Below, piece by piece: positions 53,931-63,592 of a DNA stretch of 64,000 nt. This DNA is from Pyrinomonadaceae bacterium (lineage in GTDB: Bacteria; Acidobacteriota; Blastocatellia; Pyrinomonadales; Pyrinomonadaceae). Each line of letters begins with the position of its first letter. Position 1 is the stretch's first letter. Location: positions 1 to 64,000 of the forward strand of contig JAVEDP010000004.1 in the NCBI GenBank assembly GCA_030841085.1, read 5' to 3'. The position numbers were made by a program, and so were the translations under genes. The notes beneath the pieces were generated by a model. It was not told the DNA's origin. It did no database searches and worked only from the letters and a program-made list of their open reading frames with translations.

Positions 53931-55298
53931 ATGGAACCAAACACCCAAAAACTTATTCACTCGTTCGGCGCGCTTGCCGACCTGGGCCAGGAGGTTGCTG
54001 ACACCGGCGACTTCATGGAGATGGTCCGGACGTCGCTGCACCTGCTGCTCGGGACGCTTGCGATCCGCCGCGGCGCCATCATTGAGTGTCCAACGCATCA
54101 TCTGCCCGAGGACAAGAGCACGAACCTGCTGGCGGTGTGGGGAGTCGGTGAGGACTATCAACCGAAATTTGACGTTGAAGACGCAGACCGCGATCTGTTT
54201 CTCAAGGCACCCGATGGCGCGCTGCTTGTTTCGGCGTTAGTCCAAAGTCCAAAGTCCAAAGTCCAAAGTCAAAACGGAACCGGAAGCGGTAGCGACCGGG
54301 TCGAAGACGTGGCCACGACTGCACCAGCGTCCTCGCTGATCTTTTTCGATCGCTACGCGTCCCAACTACAGCAGCAGGGCTTCGACCTGATCATCCCGAT
54401 GGTCGTGCGCGGCGAGCTAACAGGTTTAGTTTTACTCGGCGGCAAAGCCAGCGGCGATCCCTTCACCGCCGACGATCTCGAAGTCATCAAATCAATGGTC
54501 CGGCACATCGGTGTCGGCATCCACACGCACCGCTTGCTCGGGGAAGTGAAGCAGCAGGTCGTGGAGAACCGGCGGCTTTACGAAGACCTGCGCGCCATCT
54601 ATCGCGACACCGTGCGCGCCTTTGCCGCCGCCATCGACATCAAGGACAAATACACGCAGGGACATTCCGAACGCGTCGGCAAGTACAGCGAAATCATTGC
54701 GCGCGAACTGGGTTTTGGTGAAGAAGAAATCGAAGGCATGGCCATCGCCGGTTATCTGCACGACGTCGGCAAGCTGGTCGTCGAACGCGACATTATCAAC
54801 GCGCCTTATCGCATCGATGCCAAGCAATCAAGCGAACTCAATCGCCACCCGGCCGCCGGCTATGAAATTCTATCGCCCATTCATCATCCTTATGCCGACA
54901 TTCCGCTGATGGCGAAGTATCACCACGAACGCATGGACGGTCGCGGCTATCCGGATGGTTTGACGGACGAACAAATTCCGCTCGGCGCAAAGATCGTCAC
55001 GCTTGCCGATTCGTTTGACGCGATGACGACCGATCGTCCTTACAAGACGCGCCGCACTTTTGACGAAGTGATTCTCGACTTGCGCCGTAACACCGGCTCG
55101 CAATTCGACCCGATCGTTGTCATCGCGTTTTGCCGTGCACTAATGAAGGAACTAACCGGTGAGACTAAGAAACGCCGCTTCGCGAAGATGCTCGGCAAGA
55201 ACTACCTCGACGCCACCAAAGACATCCCGCTCCTGACCCAACTCCTCGCCGAGCTCGATCCTAATACCCAAACCGCCGCTGTTGGAAGCGGAAGCTAA
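53931..55298 (+). CDS. GAF-HD-GYP cyclic-di-GMP phosphodiesterase
   Basis: A 455-residue protein. Residues 10-200 are a GAF-like sensor domain. Residues 225-420 are an HD-GYP domain with the metal-binding HDVGKL near 277, HHERMDGRGYPDGL near 334-347 and KIVTLADSFDAM. It should hydrolyse c-di-GMP, opposing the cyclase at the front of the operon. Residues about 103-115 (VQSPKSKVQSQ) are encoded by five heptamers of a repeat inserted within the GAF region, kept in frame. The start ATG is supported by conservation of the first residues only. Confidence 0.92.
   Translation: MEPNTQKLIHSFGALADLGQEVADTGDFMEMVRTSLHLLLGTLAIRRGAIIECPTHHLPEDKSTNLLAVWGVGEDYQPKFDVEDADRDLFLKAPDGALLVSALVQSPKSKVQSQNGTGSGSDRVEDVATTAPASSLIFFDRYASQLQQQGFDLIIPMVVRGELTGLVLLGGKASGDPFTADDLEVIKSMVRHIGVGIHTHRLLGEVKQQVVENRRLYEDLRAIYRDTVRAFAAAIDIKDKYTQGHSERVGKYSEIIARELGFGEEEIEGMAIAGYLHDVGKLVVERDIINAPYRIDAKQSSELNRHPAAGYEILSPIHHPYADIPLMAKYHHERMDGRGYPDGLTDEQIPLGAKIVTLADSFDAMTTDRPYKTRRTFDEVILDLRRNTGSQFDPIVVIAFCRALMKELTGETKKRRFAKMLGKNYLDATKDIPLLTQLLAELDPNTQTAAVGSGS
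54239..54273. repeat. Heptad repeat inside a coding sequence
   Basis: Four AGTCCAA heptamers and one AGTCAAA in 7-bp register lie inside the HD-GYP gene. They give a hydrophilic linker in the protein and do not break the frame. Confidence 0.85.
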
Positions 55299-55315
55299 CG
55301 AAAGTTTTTAAACAG

Positions 55316-57661
55316 TTAAGCAGAAGCTGCCCTGAGCTTGGTCGTGTGCTCCTTGAAGTAAACGATATAGTTTAGGTATATGCTTGCCATCCAAGGTGCC
55401 GACTTCAACATCATTTCTCTTTCTTCCAAAGTGGGCGCTGCTGCATGCGCCCGCTCATTGCGCTCCAGTCTGAGGAAATTCAAAATGGTTTTCTCAGACA
55501 CTATCCCTTTGCTTTCTATCCACTGGATCATGTTGTTCAGCTTGGCATAATTTCCGGGACCTACCGGGTATTTCTTTGTTTTCTCAACAGTAATCATGAA
55601 ATCTCTTAAAGTGCCTTCGAATAGCCTTCCAAGCAAGAACAATCCATTGTCAACCTCAGTCAAAGTTAGCTTTGCTACCGCTTTTGAAGCTTCATCACCT
55701 TTCGTGCTGTCGAGCATTCTTAGTTTCTCTAACTGCGGAAAGCTTGCGGTCTTCTTTCCTTTAAGTCGACAAATCCTAACGCCCGACTCGGGCAGGTCGA
55801 TCTTCTCAATGAAATCCATTCGCGAGATATATTGGTACGCGGTCTTGTTTAGAAACGAGTGTTTTGAGACAAGCTCCTCAACCAATTTGGCGAGTTCAAT
55901 TTGGTTGCTGGATTCTGACTGAAGCATATCTCTCACGACAGTTTCGGCCAGTCCAAGCTTGGTTTTGGTTTTCCTCGATATCGGAGACTTATATGCGGCA
56001 AGTTTCTTTTTGTAGTCTGTCTGAAACACCGCACAAATCTTAAACGGTCGCTGTTCTCTTCGGCTTATAATCACCGGATTTACTTTAAGCATCCCCATCG
56101 CCTGATGAGTATTGACGCTAGCCGCATACGCAAGCGCCTTTCTTACTATTCTGAATTCAAGCTCCCTTGCATTTCGCTCTTTGAAGAGGTTCGCGACAAA
56201 CTCTGCTACTTGCTCCATCGACCACGTAAGGGCGTCTTGCGTTTCAGCCCAAGATGCCAATCCCCATCTTTGCCGATCCGCCTTTTTGAAGATCTCCTTC
56301 GATGCCAGATACATCTTGATAGATTGTTTGCTAACCGGTCGCCGCTTAGCTACGTAGTTCGCGATTTCCACCTCTGTCGCAGGTCGATTCAGTGAAATCA
56401 AACATCTTTCCATCAATTCAAGGATGCTTCCGGTTTCTAAGTCCGTCCAACTCTTTAGACCCCTTTGTCCGCTACTACCGACGGCTACAAACCGTCCGTC
56501 CGCCGACATGATGTTCGCAATGTTAAGGACTTGGATTTTCTTCATGCCTCTACTTGCTAATCGGTTATTAATTTCCCGTGCGATATCGTCGACATGCAGT
56601 GGTTTACCGGCCTCGGTCAACACACGCTCGGCTTGGGCGCCGCGTGTGAGAAACTCAAACCTTCCCTGGTACAAACCGTCCTCACGCCTTTCAATCGCCG
56701 CACAGAGTTCTAGAAACTTATGTAGCTTTAGCGTATCGAGTTTTTGAACCTTCGAAAGTCTGCTATTCATCAATACAAGGATGTCAAATTCATCCAATGG
56801 TCCCGTATGCGTCTTTGTCAGAAGCTCCTCCAGAAGATTGAGCGCTTTTGCTAAAAGCTTCCGTTGCCTAGTATCCCCGTATTCCCAAATCGACATGGCT
56901 TGTTGAGTTTCAACGTGACTTAAGCCGAATATATGAAACAACAAGAACAATGTGGAGTAATGCTTAACGGACACGTTCCCACCGAACACGCTTTCAGCTT
57001 TGTGCATTAACTGCCCTTCTAAAACAAATCCCTGTGAGTTGGCAGCGATTACCTCAAACAGACTCTTGGTCATTTCTAAAACGTCTGGATGTACGTGGTA
57101 GCCACGTCCTATGTACCTATTCTCAACTAATACTTCTCGGAGTTCGGCCATCGCGGTTGCTTCAATCTGCCTGATCCTTTCCCGCGAGATATTGAAGGCA
57201 GTTCCGATCTCGTCAAGGGTCATTCTTCGAGTCCCTTGCAAACCGAATCGTCGTTCAATTGTGCGCCAGCGTTTACCCGTCGGATCTTTGAAGGAAAGAA
57301 TCGCTTTGAGCAGCGCCGGCAGACTCGAAAGGTGTTCTGGTGGAGTTTCACTCTCGTGATTTGTTGGCAAGACTATGACGTTAAGACTTCGCCAAAACTT
57401 AAACCAATCTACCTGCCCATTTGGATCGATCGATCTTGACAAGTAGGTAATCACGCGCAATACGTCGGTCACAGCTGTTGCGCTTACATTCCGCACGCCT
57501 TGGAAATTATTAGCAATCAGACTTGTTAATTGACCTACCGCGGTCACACCACGTTCGCTTAGCACTTTGAAGGAACGTGGCTTCAAGTGCAATTGAGCTA
57601 ATGAAAGTGTTGATACAGTTTCAGGCAGCGATGTGAAAGATGTGAAAGAGGAAAAACTCAT
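55316..57661 (-). CDS. Sigma-region-4 / HARE-HTH / HEPN-like fusion protein
   Basis: A 781-residue protein I cannot place in a named family. Residues 18-72 resemble the RNA polymerase alpha C-terminal helix-hairpin-helix (LHLKPRSFKVLSERGVTAVG). Residues 145-176 match sigma region 4 (MTLDEIGTAFNISRERIRQI). Residues 341-405 resemble a HARE winged helix (VLTEAGKPLHVDDIA, GRFVAVG). A second winged helix is at 411-472 and a third is likely at 571-636. Residues 670-775 are helical and carry RNERAH at 734-739, the R-N-xxx-H motif of HEPN ribonucleases. It may be a DNA-bound switch that unleashes an RNase. Base and codon use is more AT-rich than in its neighbours, suggesting transfer. It lies between two signalling clusters. 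Confidence 0.75.
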   Translation of the reverse strand: MSFSSFTSFTSLPETVSTLSLAQLHLKPRSFKVLSERGVTAVGQLTSLIANNFQGVRNVSATAVTDVLRVITYLSRSIDPNGQVDWFKFWRSLNVIVLPTNHESETPPEHLSSLPALLKAILSFKDPTGKRWRTIERRFGLQGTRRMTLDEIGTAFNISRERIRQIEATAMAELREVLVENRYIGRGYHVHPDVLEMTKSLFEVIAANSQGFVLEGQLMHKAESVFGGNVSVKHYSTLFLLFHIFGLSHVETQQAMSIWEYGDTRQRKLLAKALNLLEELLTKTHTGPLDEFDILVLMNSRLSKVQKLDTLKLHKFLELCAAIERREDGLYQGRFEFLTRGAQAERVLTEAGKPLHVDDIAREINNRLASRGMKKIQVLNIANIMSADGRFVAVGSSGQRGLKSWTDLETGSILELMERCLISLNRPATEVEIANYVAKRRPVSKQSIKMYLASKEIFKKADRQRWGLASWAETQDALTWSMEQVAEFVANLFKERNARELEFRIVRKALAYAASVNTHQAMGMLKVNPVIISRREQRPFKICAVFQTDYKKKLAAYKSPISRKTKTKLGLAETVVRDMLQSESSNQIELAKLVEELVSKHSFLNKTAYQYISRMDFIEKIDLPESGVRICRLKGKKTASFPQLEKLRMLDSTKGDEASKAVAKLTLTEVDNGLFLLGRLFEGTLRDFMITVEKTKKYPVGPGNYAKLNNMIQWIESKGIVSEKTILNFLRLERNERAHAAAPTLEEREMMLKSAPWMASIYLNYIVYFKEHTTKLRAASA

Positions 57662-57744
57662 TGTGTATCTTTCGAACCCTTAAATTGGCAGTCATGCGAG
57701 GTGGAGACGACTTTCCACCGGACCTCGTTCGCCTCGGCTGAGAG

Positions 57745-58629
57745 TTACCTTGGCTGAATGCGGATGATGAAGTTGCAGATGGCGATCTTTTGATCCGGCA
57801 TAACTTCGGTGCGCTCTTCGCGGGGTAGATCCTTACCGGCAACGGTCGTGGGGTTGCGGCCTTTCGAAACGAGCCAGTAGCGGCCATCGTTTTCGCGCGT
57901 GAGGATTGCATGCACTCGACTGACTTCGGGGTCGCCTTTCAAAGGCAGGTCGACAGTAATCGTTCGTGAGCCGCGGCCGATTGTTACTTCAGGTTTTGTA
58001 ACCGGCACGACTGATTCGCGCACGCCGTCTTTCCAAATCTCGACGGTGTAGAGTTCCTTGATGCGCGGGCGCACTACGGTTTGCTCGCTTTGTTCACCCG
58101 CCTCAGTTTCCGTTGAGCTACCGTCGGCGCGTTCACGCACGGTGTCGCCCAGGTTCACGCTCGCGGATGCGGCGGGCTGCTGAGCAGAAACACGTGGCGT
58201 TACCTGCGTGTGACCACTCTCGGTTTCATCCCAAACGCCCTGGACACGGAACTGACCTTTTTCCAAAGTGCCATCAACTCGCAACTCCACCGCAAATGAT
58301 TTCGCGGCCAGGGCTGTGTGACCGCTCAACTCGCGCGCGCGTTCGGAGAGCACATGAAACAAGCCCTGTTCGAGGCCGCGACGCTTGTCGCCCTGCCAGT
58401 CTTTGTCGTCGTCGTTGCTGAGATAGACAATGTACTCGCGCGGAATGTAGGTTGGGCCACCCGGCGGCGTGAACATTTCGCGCTGCATGACGGCTTCAAC
58501 TTCGCGCGCGATCTTTACGAGGAATTCTTCCCAGATGCGGCGCGGTTTGGCGTGTTCATCGGCAGACTCGACCAGGTCTTCGCCAGTCTCACCGTCGATC
58601 CATTTTCTGATTGATTCTATTAAACCCAT
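57745..58629 (-). CDS. FHA-domain protein with DUF3662-like N-terminus (FhaA-like)
   Basis: A 294-residue protein. Residues 1-120 resemble the DUF3662 domain of actinobacterial FhaA (REYIVYLSNDD region). A variable linker follows. Residues 208-292 are an FHA phosphothreonine-binding domain (VTIGRGSRTI, then DPEVSRVHAILTRENDGRYW). It is the last gene of the cluster and probably recognises proteins phosphorylated by the kinase encoded next to it, near the cell-wall machinery. Confidence 0.85.
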   Translation of the reverse strand: MGLIESIRKWIDGETGEDLVESADEHAKPRRIWEEFLVKIAREVEAVMQREMFTPPGGPTYIPREYIVYLSNDDDKDWQGDKRRGLEQGLFHVLSERARELSGHTALAAKSFAVELRVDGTLEKGQFRVQGVWDETESGHTQVTPRVSAQQPAASASVNLGDTVRERADGSSTETEAGEQSEQTVVRPRIKELYTVEIWKDGVRESVVPVTKPEVTIGRGSRTITVDLPLKGDPEVSRVHAILTRENDGRYWLVSKGRNPTTVAGKDLPREERTEVMPDQKIAICNFIIRIQPR

Positions 58630-58663
58630 GGTTGGTGAATGGTGATAGTAAACTTAGCTGTTT

Positions 58664-58757
58664 TTGGTCTTAGGTCTTTGGACTTTGGTCTTTGATAGGA
58701 TTGTCGTTAATCGAACGCTTCTTTTTTACAAAGACCAAAGGCCCAAGACCAAAAACC
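58664..58757. repeat. Heptad palindrome (TTGGTCT / CAAAGAC type)
   Basis: The left arm 58664-58698 has five heptamers of the TTGGTCT type. The right arm 58729-58757 has four of the complementary CAAAGAC type. It is nearly the same heptamer as at 33171-33275. It lies between the kinase and FHA genes. Confidence 0.85.
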
Positions 58758-58763
58758 GTTTGA

Positions 58764-60302
58764 TTAATCAAACCTAACAAACCTCTTATTTATCCAGCCG
58801 CGGTCGGAGGTGAAGGGACTGGCCTTTGGCCTGCCGTGTTGCAGCACCTGCACCTCATACCAATTGTCCGTCGTGGACAGAATTTTAACGCGTGAACCGT
58901 TTTCTGCAACTCCCACCGGCGGATTTGCCATGCTCGCATCTGACCGCAAATTTACATCCGTTGTTGTAACACCTTCGCGGCCAATTACAAAAAGCTCACC
59001 CATCGCCGGCAAATTAACGAATGGATTCCAATGCGAGGTAACGTATTTGTGCGTCGCCAAAAGCATGATTGTGAAAGCCGCGATCAAGACTGCGGCAACG
59101 ATGTACGCGCGCTTGCGCTGGGTCGCCACCGGCCGGCGTGCAGACGCCGCCTTCCTCATTTTTGAAGACTGCGCTCCAGAATCTATTACACCCTGGTCGC
59201 GACTGCCGAGTTTCTTCTTCGACTGCGCTTCGGCGACCGGCACGACAATCTTTGGGCGCCGCTGAGCTTCTGCAAAAGCCAACGCCGCAGGCGAAGTCAC
59301 CGGAACAAAATGAGCTTGCGGCGCGGCCTTGGGAAATTCATCAGGCTCAACGGCAAGATCGACGCTCGGTTTGCGTCGCGGTTCAGCCTTAAGGTCGTTC
59401 AACGCTTTCGTTGGCGGCAGAGCTGCTTCGGCAAACTCATCCCAAAACTCTTGCACGGTCTGATAGCGCTCGCGGGGCCGCGTCTGCGTTGCTTTCTCAA
59501 GCACGCGGCGCACGGAGCTTGACCAGTAGTGATTGTTGATCGACTCCGGCAGCTCACGAATCGCATGTTGCGCAAAGCGGCGCGGCGATTGTCCCGCCAA
59601 CAGCGTGTAGGTGGTTTTGGCCAACGAGTAAATATCGGCAGCGGGCGTCAAATGTTCTTTGTTGATGAGCAGCGCGCCGGTATCCAGTTGGCCCGTCTGG
59701 ACCAGCGGATTGTGTTCGGGCGCTGAATAGATATTTGTGCCAACGCGCGTGATAGCGCCTTCGGTAGCTTCGAGACGCGCGACGCCAAAGTCCGCAATCT
59801 TCACAACATGCCGGTCGCCAGTCAGCAACAAATTCTGCGGCTTGATATCGCGATGGATAACGCCGCACTTATGCGCGTGCGCCAAACCGGAACAAACCTG
59901 CTCGAGATAGAACAGCGCCTTATCGATCGTCAACGCCTGCTGACGCGCCAGCGCCGACATGTCTCCACCCGACAGGTATTCGAGCACGATGTAATGGAAA
60001 GTCGTGCCGGTAAGGTCGATGGCCGTGCCGTGGCCCAGGCGGCTGATGATGTTTGGATGGCGCACGCGATCCAGCGCCACCGCTTCGTTTTGAAAATTTG
60101 AAATCAGCGTGTGTTCGAGATCGGCATCAGGCGTGTCCTGCAGAAACATGTTCAGGGCCTTGATGACGACTGTGGTGGGCGCGCCCTCAGGCGCAGCATT
60201 GTCGTGGGCCACATAGATCTCGGCATAGCTGCCCCGGCCCAGGCATTCAATGATGTCGTAACGACCATCGAGCCTGCTTTGTTGTAGCTTCAGTTCTGCC
60301 AT
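58764..60302 (-). CDS. Membrane-anchored Ser/Thr protein kinase with extracytoplasmic SH3-like domain
   Basis: A 512-residue kinase. The catalytic domain is residues 14-275: Gly loop GRGSYAEIYV, VVIKAL with the Lys, HRDIKPQNLLL near 151, and ADFGVARLE near 171. A basic linker and one membrane helix (YIVAAVLIAAFTIMLLATH, about 397-416) follow. The outer part, residues 440-512, resembles a bacterial SH3 domain (DVNLRSDASM, WINKRFVRF). It has no PASTA repeats, unlike PknB. It should phosphorylate the FHA partner and cell-wall proteins. Confidence 0.93.
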   Translation of the reverse strand: MAELKLQQSRLDGRYDIIECLGRGSYAEIYVAHDNAAPEGAPTTVVIKALNMFLQDTPDADLEHTLISNFQNEAVALDRVRHPNIISRLGHGTAIDLTGTTFHYIVLEYLSGGDMSALARQQALTIDKALFYLEQVCSGLAHAHKCGVIHRDIKPQNLLLTGDRHVVKIADFGVARLEATEGAITRVGTNIYSAPEHNPLVQTGQLDTGALLINKEHLTPAADIYSLAKTTYTLLAGQSPRRFAQHAIRELPESINNHYWSSSVRRVLEKATQTRPRERYQTVQEFWDEFAEAALPPTKALNDLKAEPRRKPSVDLAVEPDEFPKAAPQAHFVPVTSPAALAFAEAQRRPKIVVPVAEAQSKKKLGSRDQGVIDSGAQSSKMRKAASARRPVATQRKRAYIVAAVLIAAFTIMLLATHKYVTSHWNPFVNLPAMGELFVIGREGVTTTDVNLRSDASMANPPVGVAENGSRVKILSTTDNWYEVQVLQHGRPKASPFTSDRGWINKRFVRFD

Positions 60303-60353
60303 CGTGCGCGCTTCTGTTCGCCTTGTCTTTGATGCTGCGAGGGGAAATGAGGG

Positions 60354-61904
60354 CTAAGGGGTAGGCTGCGAAACTGCCGGAGAACCGGTTGCCGCGGGCT
60401 TAGGAATGATCTCGTCAAGATGCGTTTGCGCTGCTGGCCTGTCTTTATCTGACTTTAACGCTGCCGCCGCAAGCCCGAGCGTCGCCTCTTTGCGCAGCGT
60501 CATATTCTCTGGCGACGGGTCGCCATTCGCTTTGACGATAGTCGCTTCGAAGGCCCTCACTGCTTCGTCAGTATTGCCGTTCAGGAGTGACGCGCGTCCG
60601 TAAAGATACAAAAATTCCGGTTGGGTGGAATCGAGTGCGTTTTGAATTCCTTGTTGGCCCATCTCCTGGTGGGCTGTCGCTGCCAGCCAGGTGGCCGGAT
60701 CGCGATCGACATCGCGCCGTTCAGTTTCAAAATTCGAGTACGGCGGTGGTGTCGCTGCGGTTGCTTCGGGTGAAGCTTGTGCCGCGATTTGATTGTCGGG
60801 ATCGACGTAGGGAATAGGCCCCTTGTATTTCCTGCCGCCGTAAAAAGCCGCGCCGATTGCGCCTAGTACCAATAGAAACAGAATGAAGCGGCCGAAGAAA
60901 CCACCGCCGCGACGTTGACCAACGTCGTTGACAGGGGCGCTTTCGATTGTTCGTTCGAGGTTGACGGTTTCTGCGCTTCGAGTTCCGCCGGCAGGAAACG
61001 CTTTGCGCGATGCGGGCACGAAGTCTGCCGGCGCAGTTTCGAGCGTGTCCATTTTATGCGAAGCAGAAACGGTCGGAACCACGTTTGCTTCGGGTGTCAG
61101 CGTCTCGTCCATCTCAGCGCTGCGCGTCGCGGCTGAGATCGAAGTGCCGACCCGCACAACGACGGCGGTCAGGTTATCTTCGGCGCCACGTTCGTAGCAG
61201 CGCTCTTTAAGCGCGGCGCAGAGCGTAGGCAGATCGTCGTTCAGAATCATTAACTGGCGCAGCTCGTAATCAGGAATGTGTCGGGTAATGCCGTCGGTGC
61301 AAAGAAGAAATTGAGTGCCGTCTTCTACTTCGATTACCTTCATGTCGACTTCAACGCCGTCCTCGGCGCCGAGCGCGCGACTAATGATGTTCTTGCTGGG
61401 ATGATTGGCAGCCTGTTCCGCGGTCATGCGTCCGGCGCGTACTTCTTCTTCAACGACGGAATGATCTTCCGTTTCGCGCATCAGATGGCCGTCGGGGGTA
61501 AGACGATACAGACGCGAATCGCCAACGTGTCCGATCGTGGCGATGTTGTTTTTGATATGCAGCGCCACGATGGTAGTCGCCATCATGGCAAACTTGGCGT
61601 GCTCCTGGGCCATCTTGTGAATCGACGCATTGGCGCGTTGAATCGCAAGCTCCATTAGGTCTTCAACGTCGGCGTTTTCTTCCTTATGGCGAAACGCTTC
61701 GTCGAGCACCTCAATTGCAGTTTGCGATGCGACTTCGCCGGCTTCCGCTCCGCCTACGCCATCGGCAACGGAAAAGATGCCGCGCTCCGCGTCGGCCAAA
61801 AATGAATCTTCGTTAAGAGGGCGCTTCTCGCTAAGTCCGCGATCGGTTACGGCCGAGGATTTTACTGTCAGCTCCGGCGCTGGATGATTGATGGGTTGGC
61901 TCAT
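60354..61904 (-). CDS. PP2C-family protein phosphatase with membrane anchor and TPR-like tail
   Basis: A 516-residue protein. Residues 15-255 are the PP2C domain with metal ligands in RPLNEDSFL, FSVADGVGGAEAGE and CTDGITRHI. The membrane helix is about residues 335-355 (FGRFILFLLVLGAIGAAFYG). The outer part (410-505) has helices like TPR repeats (LYGRASLLNGNTDEAVRAFE). It opposes the kinase. It is coupled to the rodA-like gene by a four-base overlap. Confidence 0.93.
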   Translation of the reverse strand: MSQPINHPAPELTVKSSAVTDRGLSEKRPLNEDSFLADAERGIFSVADGVGGAEAGEVASQTAIEVLDEAFRHKEENADVEDLMELAIQRANASIHKMAQEHAKFAMMATTIVALHIKNNIATIGHVGDSRLYRLTPDGHLMRETEDHSVVEEEVRAGRMTAEQAANHPSKNIISRALGAEDGVEVDMKVIEVEDGTQFLLCTDGITRHIPDYELRQLMILNDDLPTLCAALKERCYERGAEDNLTAVVVRVGTSISAATRSAEMDETLTPEANVVPTVSASHKMDTLETAPADFVPASRKAFPAGGTRSAETVNLERTIESAPVNDVGQRRGGGFFGRFILFLLVLGAIGAAFYGGRKYKGPIPYVDPDNQIAAQASPEATAATPPPYSNFETERRDVDRDPATWLAATAHQEMGQQGIQNALDSTQPEFLYLYGRASLLNGNTDEAVRAFEATIVKANGDPSPENMTLRKEATLGLAAAALKSDKDRPAAQTHLDEIIPKPAATGSPAVSQPTP

Positions 61905-63592
61905 TCAACCGCCTCCAAATTTAGTGGCGACGCAGGCACGCCGGGCGAGGGCTTGGCGAGCAGTTGGTCGCGCGCGTTTCGATGGGAAAAAGCCATCAGC
62001 ATGCCTAACATCGCAAAGCTGGTGACCAGGCTGAATCCTCCATGACTAACGAACGGCAGCGTAATTCCGGTCATCGGCAAAGCGCGCAAGATGCCGCCGA
62101 TATTAACCAGTGCCTGGAAACCTATGAAAGCTGTCAGGCCGGCCGCGCAAAGCTTGGTAAACATATCACGCGCGTCGAGCGAAGTACGAACTCCGGCCAC
62201 CACCAAAATAATCACGGCCAGCAGCACGATCGCGCCGCCAGTCAAACCCAGCTCCTCGCCAATTGCGGCGTAAACGTAATCCGAATCGGCGATTGGTATA
62301 ACTTCCGGAAAACCAAGTCCCAGCCCGCGTCCAGTGCTCTTGCCTGAAGCAATCCCAAAAATCGCCTGGGCCGGTTGGAAAGCCAGCTTATCAAACCAGA
62401 CATCGACGTTAACAATATTTTGCATCGCCGGACTCTGTTCCGAAAGTTGCTTGAGTTCAGCATCACCGTTGACCGCCTCCTGGTAATCTTTTTTCCACCA
62501 GGAAACTTCCGGCGACGGCGGATCGAAACCGTCGAGCCACAAATGGAAGCGCTGTTGAATGCGCGACGGCAGCATCGTCTGAACCGGACGAGCGATGGTC
62601 GGCAGCAGCGGCACCTTCTCCTGCACGTCTCGCGGCAACGCGCCCACAACGAGAATCCCTATGACCAGCAGCAGCGAACCGACGAACAAGAGCAACTGCG
62701 GCCAACGTCTGACGGCGACGAGATAAAGCGTCGTGTAAGCGCCGCTGAAGATCAACATCTGCCCAAAGTCTTTCAGCGCGAAGAAGGGAACGAACGGCAA
62801 CATCCCCATCACGACCAGAGGGACCACATCGCGCGCGCGCGGAATGCCCCAATACGTTTCAGCCAGATCTTTGTAACGTGCCGTTAAGATTCCGGCGAAG
62901 CCGAGCAGGAAGGGAATCTTCGACGGTTCCCACGGCGTCATGTTTCCCAGCGCTTTGCCGGCGCTGGACGTGACCACGGCCGCCGCCAATGGCAGCAGCG
63001 TCAAAAGCACGACGACGAAACTGTTCCGTTGCAGCCAAAGCAGAAAGCCATCGCGAACACAAAACATGTAGGCCACACCAAAGGCAAGAAACGAGAAGAT
63101 AGGAATCCAGGTATAGCTTGAGGTCAAGGCGTCGCCGATGGAATAGTTTGCTTCACGCCGCGGCAACTGATTGATATCGATGGACGAAGCAGGCGTGGCC
63201 GGCAACCCCATCATCTGTTTCTTGGCCGCGTCGTAGTTCTCGATGATGTAGCGTGTGCGCAGCGCTTCCATCTTTTGCGCGCGCGCGGCCGATTTGTTGC
63301 GGGCGTTGTATTCAGGATCGCTGTAGAGCCGGTATTGGACCAGCATGCCGATTGAGAAGAGAAGGACGGCGGTCGTAAACAGAATCCACTGGCCACTGTA
63401 ATTATTCACGCGCGACAGCCAGACGACCATCGCTAACAGCGGCACAAACATCAGCAGGTCCCGGACGGCGCCGATGGTGGACGTTTCATAACCACGCAGC
63501 AAACCACTGCGGTGAATGGCCCAATAACCCGCAATCTCAAAAAGGAAGATCAGCAGGATTATTAGGAGATGTGATGATGCGCGATTCTTCAT
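61901..63592 (-). CDS. FtsW/RodA/SpoVE family peptidoglycan polymerase
   Basis: A 563-residue membrane protein with at least ten hydrophobic helices. The SEDS landmarks are IFGIASGKSTGRGLGLGFP, AAIGEELGLTGG and, near the end, LPFVSHGGFSLVTSFAMLG. It is longer than usual owing to a large loop (about residues 100-150 and 330-400). It polymerises glycan strands together with the transpeptidase encoded upstream. No ribosome site is visible; a heptad array precedes the ATG. Confidence 0.92.
   Translation of the reverse strand: MKNRASSHLLIILLIFLFEIAGYWAIHRSGLLRGYETSTIGAVRDLLMFVPLLAMVVWLSRVNNYSGQWILFTTAVLLFSIGMLVQYRLYSDPEYNARNKSAARAQKMEALRTRYIIENYDAAKKQMMGLPATPASSIDINQLPRREANYSIGDALTSSYTWIPIFSFLAFGVAYMFCVRDGFLLWLQRNSFVVVLLTLLPLAAAVVTSSAGKALGNMTPWEPSKIPFLLGFAGILTARYKDLAETYWGIPRARDVVPLVVMGMLPFVPFFALKDFGQMLIFSGAYTTLYLVAVRRWPQLLLFVGSLLLVIGILVVGALPRDVQEKVPLLPTIARPVQTMLPSRIQQRFHLWLDGFDPPSPEVSWWKKDYQEAVNGDAELKQLSEQSPAMQNIVNVDVWFDKLAFQPAQAIFGIASGKSTGRGLGLGFPEVIPIADSDYVYAAIGEELGLTGGAIVLLAVIILVVAGVRTSLDARDMFTKLCAAGLTAFIGFQALVNIGGILRALPMTGITLPFVSHGGFSLVTSFAMLGMLMAFSHRNARDQLLAKPSPGVPASPLNLEAVE

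Follow-up and report, generated by a model that had tools for sequence, protein, structure and literature searches.

The 64,000-nucleotide stretch of DNA from a Pyrinomonadaceae bacterium analysed here (the window) harbors a gene encoding P0001, a protein that combines modules resembling parts of RNA polymerase with a C-terminal domain carrying the motif RNERAH. The locus raises the question of whether this protein is a single-gene defence factor, a transcription-coupled regulator or a toxin-like selfish gene, and where the gene came from.

Domain organization of P0001

P0001 is encoded by an ORF on the minus strand (55316–57661, 781 aa; stop codon at 55316–55318). An earlier note, made from the sequence letters, had described a protein of fused modules, and this was borne out: sigma-70 region 4 was matched at E 4e-10 and HARE exceeded its Pfam cut-off, accompanied by a sub-threshold helix-hairpin-helix (HhH), further winged-helix-like stretches and RNERAH. 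The features are listed below; P0005 is a relative from Cobetia amphilecti N-80.

55316–57661, minus strand: whole ORF, in the order HhH, sigma region 4, tandem HARE, further winged-helix-like stretches, HEPN-like domain
57455–57607, minus strand: RNA polymerase alpha-CTD-like HhH, residues 19–69; Pfam RNA_pol_A_CTD, E 0.003, below cut-off
57134–57262, minus strand: sigma-70 region 4 HTH, residues 134–176; Pfam Sigma70_r4, E 4.4e-10; PDB matches are RpoD/RpoS region 4
56474–56635, minus strand: HARE-HTH 1, residues 343–396; Pfam, over cut-off
56246–56443, minus strand: HARE-HTH 2, residues ~407–472; alignment with a P0005 stretch that is a Pfam HARE match
55757–56230, minus strand: one or two further winged-helix-like stretches, residues ~478–635; alignment only
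55319–55672, minus strand: HEPN-like C-terminal domain, residues 664–781; similar to the P0005 domain
55604–55618, minus strand: EGTLR, residues 682–686, the E-x3-[KR] motif of HEPN domains; E682, R686 and D687 invariant in P0001 and P0005
55445–55462, minus strand: RNERAH, residues 734–739, predicted catalytic Rx4H motif; RNNRAH in P0005

The HARE-HTH match (PF05066) of P0001 had an E-value of 1e-5 and 26.3 bits, the gathering cut-off being 25.9, and the NCBIfam model of the RNA polymerase delta subunit matched residues 344–409 below its cut-off. The HARE pair of P0001 aligned with that of P0005 at Z 33 against shuffles. Residues ~478–635 were also alignable with P0005 (Z 7.7) and weakly with P0002, an acidobacterial relative described below (Z 4); the N-terminal HhH was not alignable with the P0005 N-terminus. 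Three N-terminal modules of P0001 resemble RNA polymerase parts, namely, alpha-CTD, sigma region 4 and delta/HARE. The possibility of a complete sigma factor was considered and rejected: P0001 has region 4 only, no sigma region 2 or 3 having been found, and therefore cannot be a complete sigma factor.

The C-terminal domain and its HEPN signatures

The C-terminal domains of P0001 and P0005 showed 31% identity, with a Z of 23.6 against shuffles. Conservation within the domain was highest in a block of 13 columns, which reads LNFLRLERNERAH in P0001 and LNTLREERNNRAH in P0005 and contains the motif from which the earlier note had proposed a HEPN domain. HEPN RNases are marked by two signatures, Rx4–6H with a polar residue after the Arg and E-x3-[KR] (PMC3710099). 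Both were present in the pair, the former as RNERAH and RNNRAH and the latter, upstream, as FEGTLRD in P0001 and FENSLRD in P0005. The motif was thus retained, in the most conserved block and together with E-x3-R, in the one domain-bearing homologue in which it was tested, and its conservation refers to two sequences, P0001 and P0005. Among 200,000 shuffles of the columns of the P0001/P0005 alignment, 198 contained a conserved RNxxxH and 11 contained both motifs; this test was chosen after the motif had been seen and measures arrangement only.

No Pfam HEPN family matched P0001 up to an E-value of 10. HEPN families are very divergent (PMC3710099), and therefore the absence of a profile match does not exclude membership. 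Alignment by hhalign with seven Acidobacteriota HEPN_RiboL-PSP proteins placed RNERAH on their RNxxxH, but not significantly, as one of 60 shuffles scored higher and a sigma-4 control scored about equal. AlphaFold without an alignment gave a pLDDT of 34 for the whole protein and 42 for residues 650–781, which is not usable; at this pLDDT of 42, the C-terminal model consisted of helices only, one of which ends in the motif, as in HEPN domains. Foldseek with this weak model found nothing significant (best row, the toxin-antitoxin entry 7bxo, E 6.8), a second structural comparison aligned 11 chains with a best Z of 3.9 to an unrelated POU domain, and a PDB sequence search with the domain returned nothing useful. 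Those weak C-terminal matches in relatives that could be inspected did not contain the motif. Taken together, the C-terminal domain of P0001 is very probably a HEPN domain.

Relatives of P0001 and exchange of the effector

One clear relative was found among 396 Acidobacteriota genomes, the 696-aa P0002 of genome G060 (L032/L126). It shares the sigma-4/HARE core of P0001 (26% identity over 388 aa, E 1e-16; Pfam HARE, 27.9 bits), whereas its C-terminus is a Schlafen AlbA_2 domain (SLFN_AlbA_2, E 1.9e-15) where the HEPN domain would be. The GC content of its gene is 49% as compared to 64% in the surroundings. By their predicted domains, P0002 and P0001 are related by an effector swap, with Schlafen AlbA_2 replacing the HEPN-like domain, consistent with a sensor whose effector can be exchanged. 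A weak second acidobacterial relative, the 725-aa P0003 (genome G429, L072:7–2184, on a 3.6-kb contig), showed an HhH/sigma-4/tandem HARE-like order below the Pfam cut-offs and no recognised effector; its HARE stretch aligned with that of P0001 at Z 13. Such proteins are very rare, as relatives were present in one or two of the 395 Acidobacteriota genomes other than that of the window.

A first scan of genome contigs with a single protein detected no relatives. Similarly, nothing beyond sigma region 4 was found in viral contigs (four scans), plasmids or phages, and plasmid searches with P0002 and P0003 yielded, apart from SLFN_AlbA_2 proteins, a single HARE-like protein. A 653-aa protein of a Segatella copri plasmid (L094:6438–8399) carries a C-terminal tandem HARE-like stretch and adjoins DprA, phosphoribosyltransferase and HAD genes; it may be a related sensor.

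The only full-length, co-linear relative found was P0005 (784 aa), which belongs to another phylum. It was detected by scanning 84,980 species genomes with a pattern built from the P0001/P0002 core; more relatives may exist, because the pattern scan is insensitive. Residues 111–770 of P0001 align with P0005 at 26% identity (E 8e-46). P0005 contains two Pfam HARE stretches (29.2 bits) and a sub-threshold match to Pfam HEPN_RiboL-PSP (PF18735; residues 679–771, E 2.5). Its gene has a GC content of 36.7%, that of the neighbours being 61–65%. Among 151 sampled genomes of the family and 398 of the phylum, no further copy of this type was present besides that in the Cobetia genome itself.

Genomic context and insertion sites

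The P0001 gene lies between convergent genes, with an FHA gene 83 bp upstream on the same (minus) strand and an HD-GYP gene convergent with it across a 17-bp gap. The minus-strand row upstream (57748–63592 of the window) comprises FHA, Ser/Thr kinase, PP2C and FtsW/RodA-like genes. The GC content of the P0001 gene is 46.5% as against 52–58% in adjacent genes, and its GC3 is 50% as against 59–69%. The earlier note had called it an AT-richer gene standing alone. The AT-richness holds and the gene stands alone by origin; given its closeness to the FHA gene, however, transcripts of the PP2C-kinase-FHA cluster may extend into it. A search around the gene for inverted repeats, promoters and terminators gave nothing beyond chance expectation; no defence genes adjoin it in the window.

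No full-length copy of P0001 was detected in 58 relatives, including 15 congeners, some of them incomplete; the matches in them covered sigma region 4 only. In three genomes (G015, G003, and G007), the FHA and HD-GYP genes that flank the P0001 gene are immediate neighbours. In others, the corresponding junction (window 55298–57748) holds an IS200-like transposase ORF identified by eye (G011), two unrelated hypothetical ORFs, neither matching any defence model (G014), or a short gap resembling a remnant (G005). On the FHA side, the nucleotide sequence is again similar to that of the congeners from the stop codon onward; on the HD-GYP side, the similarity tails off at, or slightly ahead of, the stop of that gene. 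As judged from these sequence comparisons, the P0001 gene belongs to the accessory genes and occupies an insertion site flanked by convergent genes. Horizontal transfer, which the earlier note had thought likely, is supported by the foreign composition, by the absence in congeners and by the foreign GC content of the relatives' genes.

The site of P0005 in Cobetia, between a sigma-54 regulator and a 377-aa gene, has other contents in three other Cobetia genomes. In G518, it is occupied by a 1176-aa SIR2 protein matching DSR2 (PADLOC, E 4e-135); in G491, by LmuA, which carries a Cap4 nuclease domain, and by LmuB (E 8e-104 and 8e-95, respectively), the LmuB frame being interrupted by a stop; and in G506, by an IS3-type transposase identified by eye. 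Depending on the species, these swap-site loci (L138:1472–4999, L136:1654–4499, and L137:1853–2758) thus hold a DSR2-like gene, Lamassu or an IS element. The GC content of the DSR2 and Lamassu genes is 34–35%. The earlier note had suggested looking for homologues near defence genes, and for P0005 this search was positive, the site holding DSR2 or Lamassu in two sister species. Therefore, P0005 sits where anti-phage systems are taken up; P0001 itself has no such neighbour and is linked to defence through its homology to P0005. A location of this kind is indirect evidence, given that insertion sites can also acquire non-defence genes.

These observations bear on two other explanations. P0001 could be a regulator or stress switch coupled to transcription and without an immune role: it would bind RNA polymerase or promoters and, under stress, break down nascent or stable RNA with its HEPN-like domain, its gene perhaps being read through from the PP2C-kinase-FHA cluster. 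The likeness of the three N-terminal modules to polymerase parts and the placement 83 bp downstream of the signalling cluster on its strand are in favor of such a role; however, the gene is missing in congeners that retain the cluster, its composition is foreign, its relatives are located in unrelated places and the effector is swapped in P0002, and we regard this explanation as unlikely. Alternatively, a selfish toxin-like gene, i.e., an addiction gene or toxin-antitoxin remnant with no immune role, could have been kept by transfer. HEPN domains are common as toxins (PMC3710099), and the gene is strongly foreign and sporadic. Against this, no small antitoxin or nucleotidyltransferase partner was recognised beside the P0001 or P0005 genes and the large sensor part is kept across phyla, which makes a selfish toxin quite unlikely.

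Comparison with known systems

Fusion of a DUF4145-type HEPN domain to a SIGMA-HTH has been recorded (Anantharaman et al., 2013, PMC3710099, Table 1). P0001 shares with the HEPN superfamily Rx4H with a polar residue after the Arg, E-x3-[KR] and, in principle, the fusion to a sigma-type HTH. It differs from the DUF4145-type proteins in that it has no DUF4145 match and additionally contains tandem HARE and winged-helix-like stretches; PMC3710099 makes no mention of HARE. HARE-HTH domains joined to restriction endonucleases have been described from defence loci (PMC10853773, PMC12839542), and HARE domains have been proposed as readers of modified bases (PMC10853773), with cytosine modification thought to be the more likely target (PMC11037411). 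Like these fusions, P0001 combines HARE, a proposed modification-discriminating sensor, with a nuclease effector, but the effector is a putative RNase rather than a restriction endonuclease, a sigma-4 module is present and the gene stands alone. P0002 has the sigma-4 and HARE core in common with P0001 and differs in its C-terminus. In passages of papers naming both HARE-HTH and HEPN, located by a term search whose scope did not extend to the founding HARE paper (PMC3272235), which may list sigma-4/HARE proteins, the sigma-4/tandem HARE/HEPN combination was not found. Because HEPN fused to a sigma-type HTH has already been recorded, the order predicted for P0001 is regarded as a variant of such fusions and not as wholly new.

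DSR2, a single-protein abortive-infection system (PMC11087589), and Lamassu share the chromosomal site in Cobetia species with P0005 and are unrelated in sequence. The sigma region 4 of P0001 scored best, in both NCBIfam and PADLOC, against the C-terminal part of MzaA of the MZA anti-phage system (NF041931); membership was rejected, as the match scored 55 bits, the cut-off being 800, and was confined to region 4. It is highly unlikely that P0001 is an MzaA-like sigma factor or transcription regulator of a distant defence locus, with a non-catalytic helical dimerisation domain at its C-terminus: MzaA is the best model for the sigma-4 part, but sigma regions 2 and 3 are lacking, no MZA partner genes were seen near the P0001 gene and both catalytic motifs are conserved in P0001 and P0005.

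Proposed function

We consider P0001 to be probably a horizontally acquired, single-protein defence factor, in which a DNA- or RNA polymerase-bound sensor is joined to a predicted HEPN RNase effector. The suggestion of a single-gene defence, raised in the earlier note, gains support from the motif kept in P0005 and from DSR2 and Lamassu at the P0005 site in sister species. The HEPN fold, the RNase activity, the dimer, the trigger and the protection against phages are features that we infer for P0001. The N-terminal part, with its alpha-CTD-like HhH, sigma region 4 and tandem HARE, would dock the protein on DNA, promoters or RNA polymerase, and the sensor would hold the HEPN RNase in check and free it upon infection. 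The infection signal could be, e.g., modified phage DNA or the takeover of the polymerase by the phage. The latter is suggested because three modules resemble polymerase parts, and sensing of modified DNA by the HARE domains is one among several possible triggers. The signal would travel via the winged helices to the C-terminal HEPN domains, which would act as a dimeric, metal-independent RNase, cutting RNA and stopping growth or phage production in the manner of abortive infection.

More tentatively, P0001 and its relatives might represent a so far undescribed family of single-protein immune sensors built of modules associated with RNA polymerase (alpha-CTD, sigma 4, and delta-like HARE), which would watch the transcription machinery or modified promoter DNA and fire an exchangeable effector, either a HEPN RNase or Schlafen AlbA_2, upon phage takeover. 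P0005 provides a second, independent gene for testing, beside the DSR2 and Lamassu of the same site. If this proposal is true, P0001 would be a one-gene defence candidate whose sensor resembles RNA polymerase parts and whose effector is exchangeable, and it would become testable whether bacteria detect phages by directly watching transcription or modified DNA.
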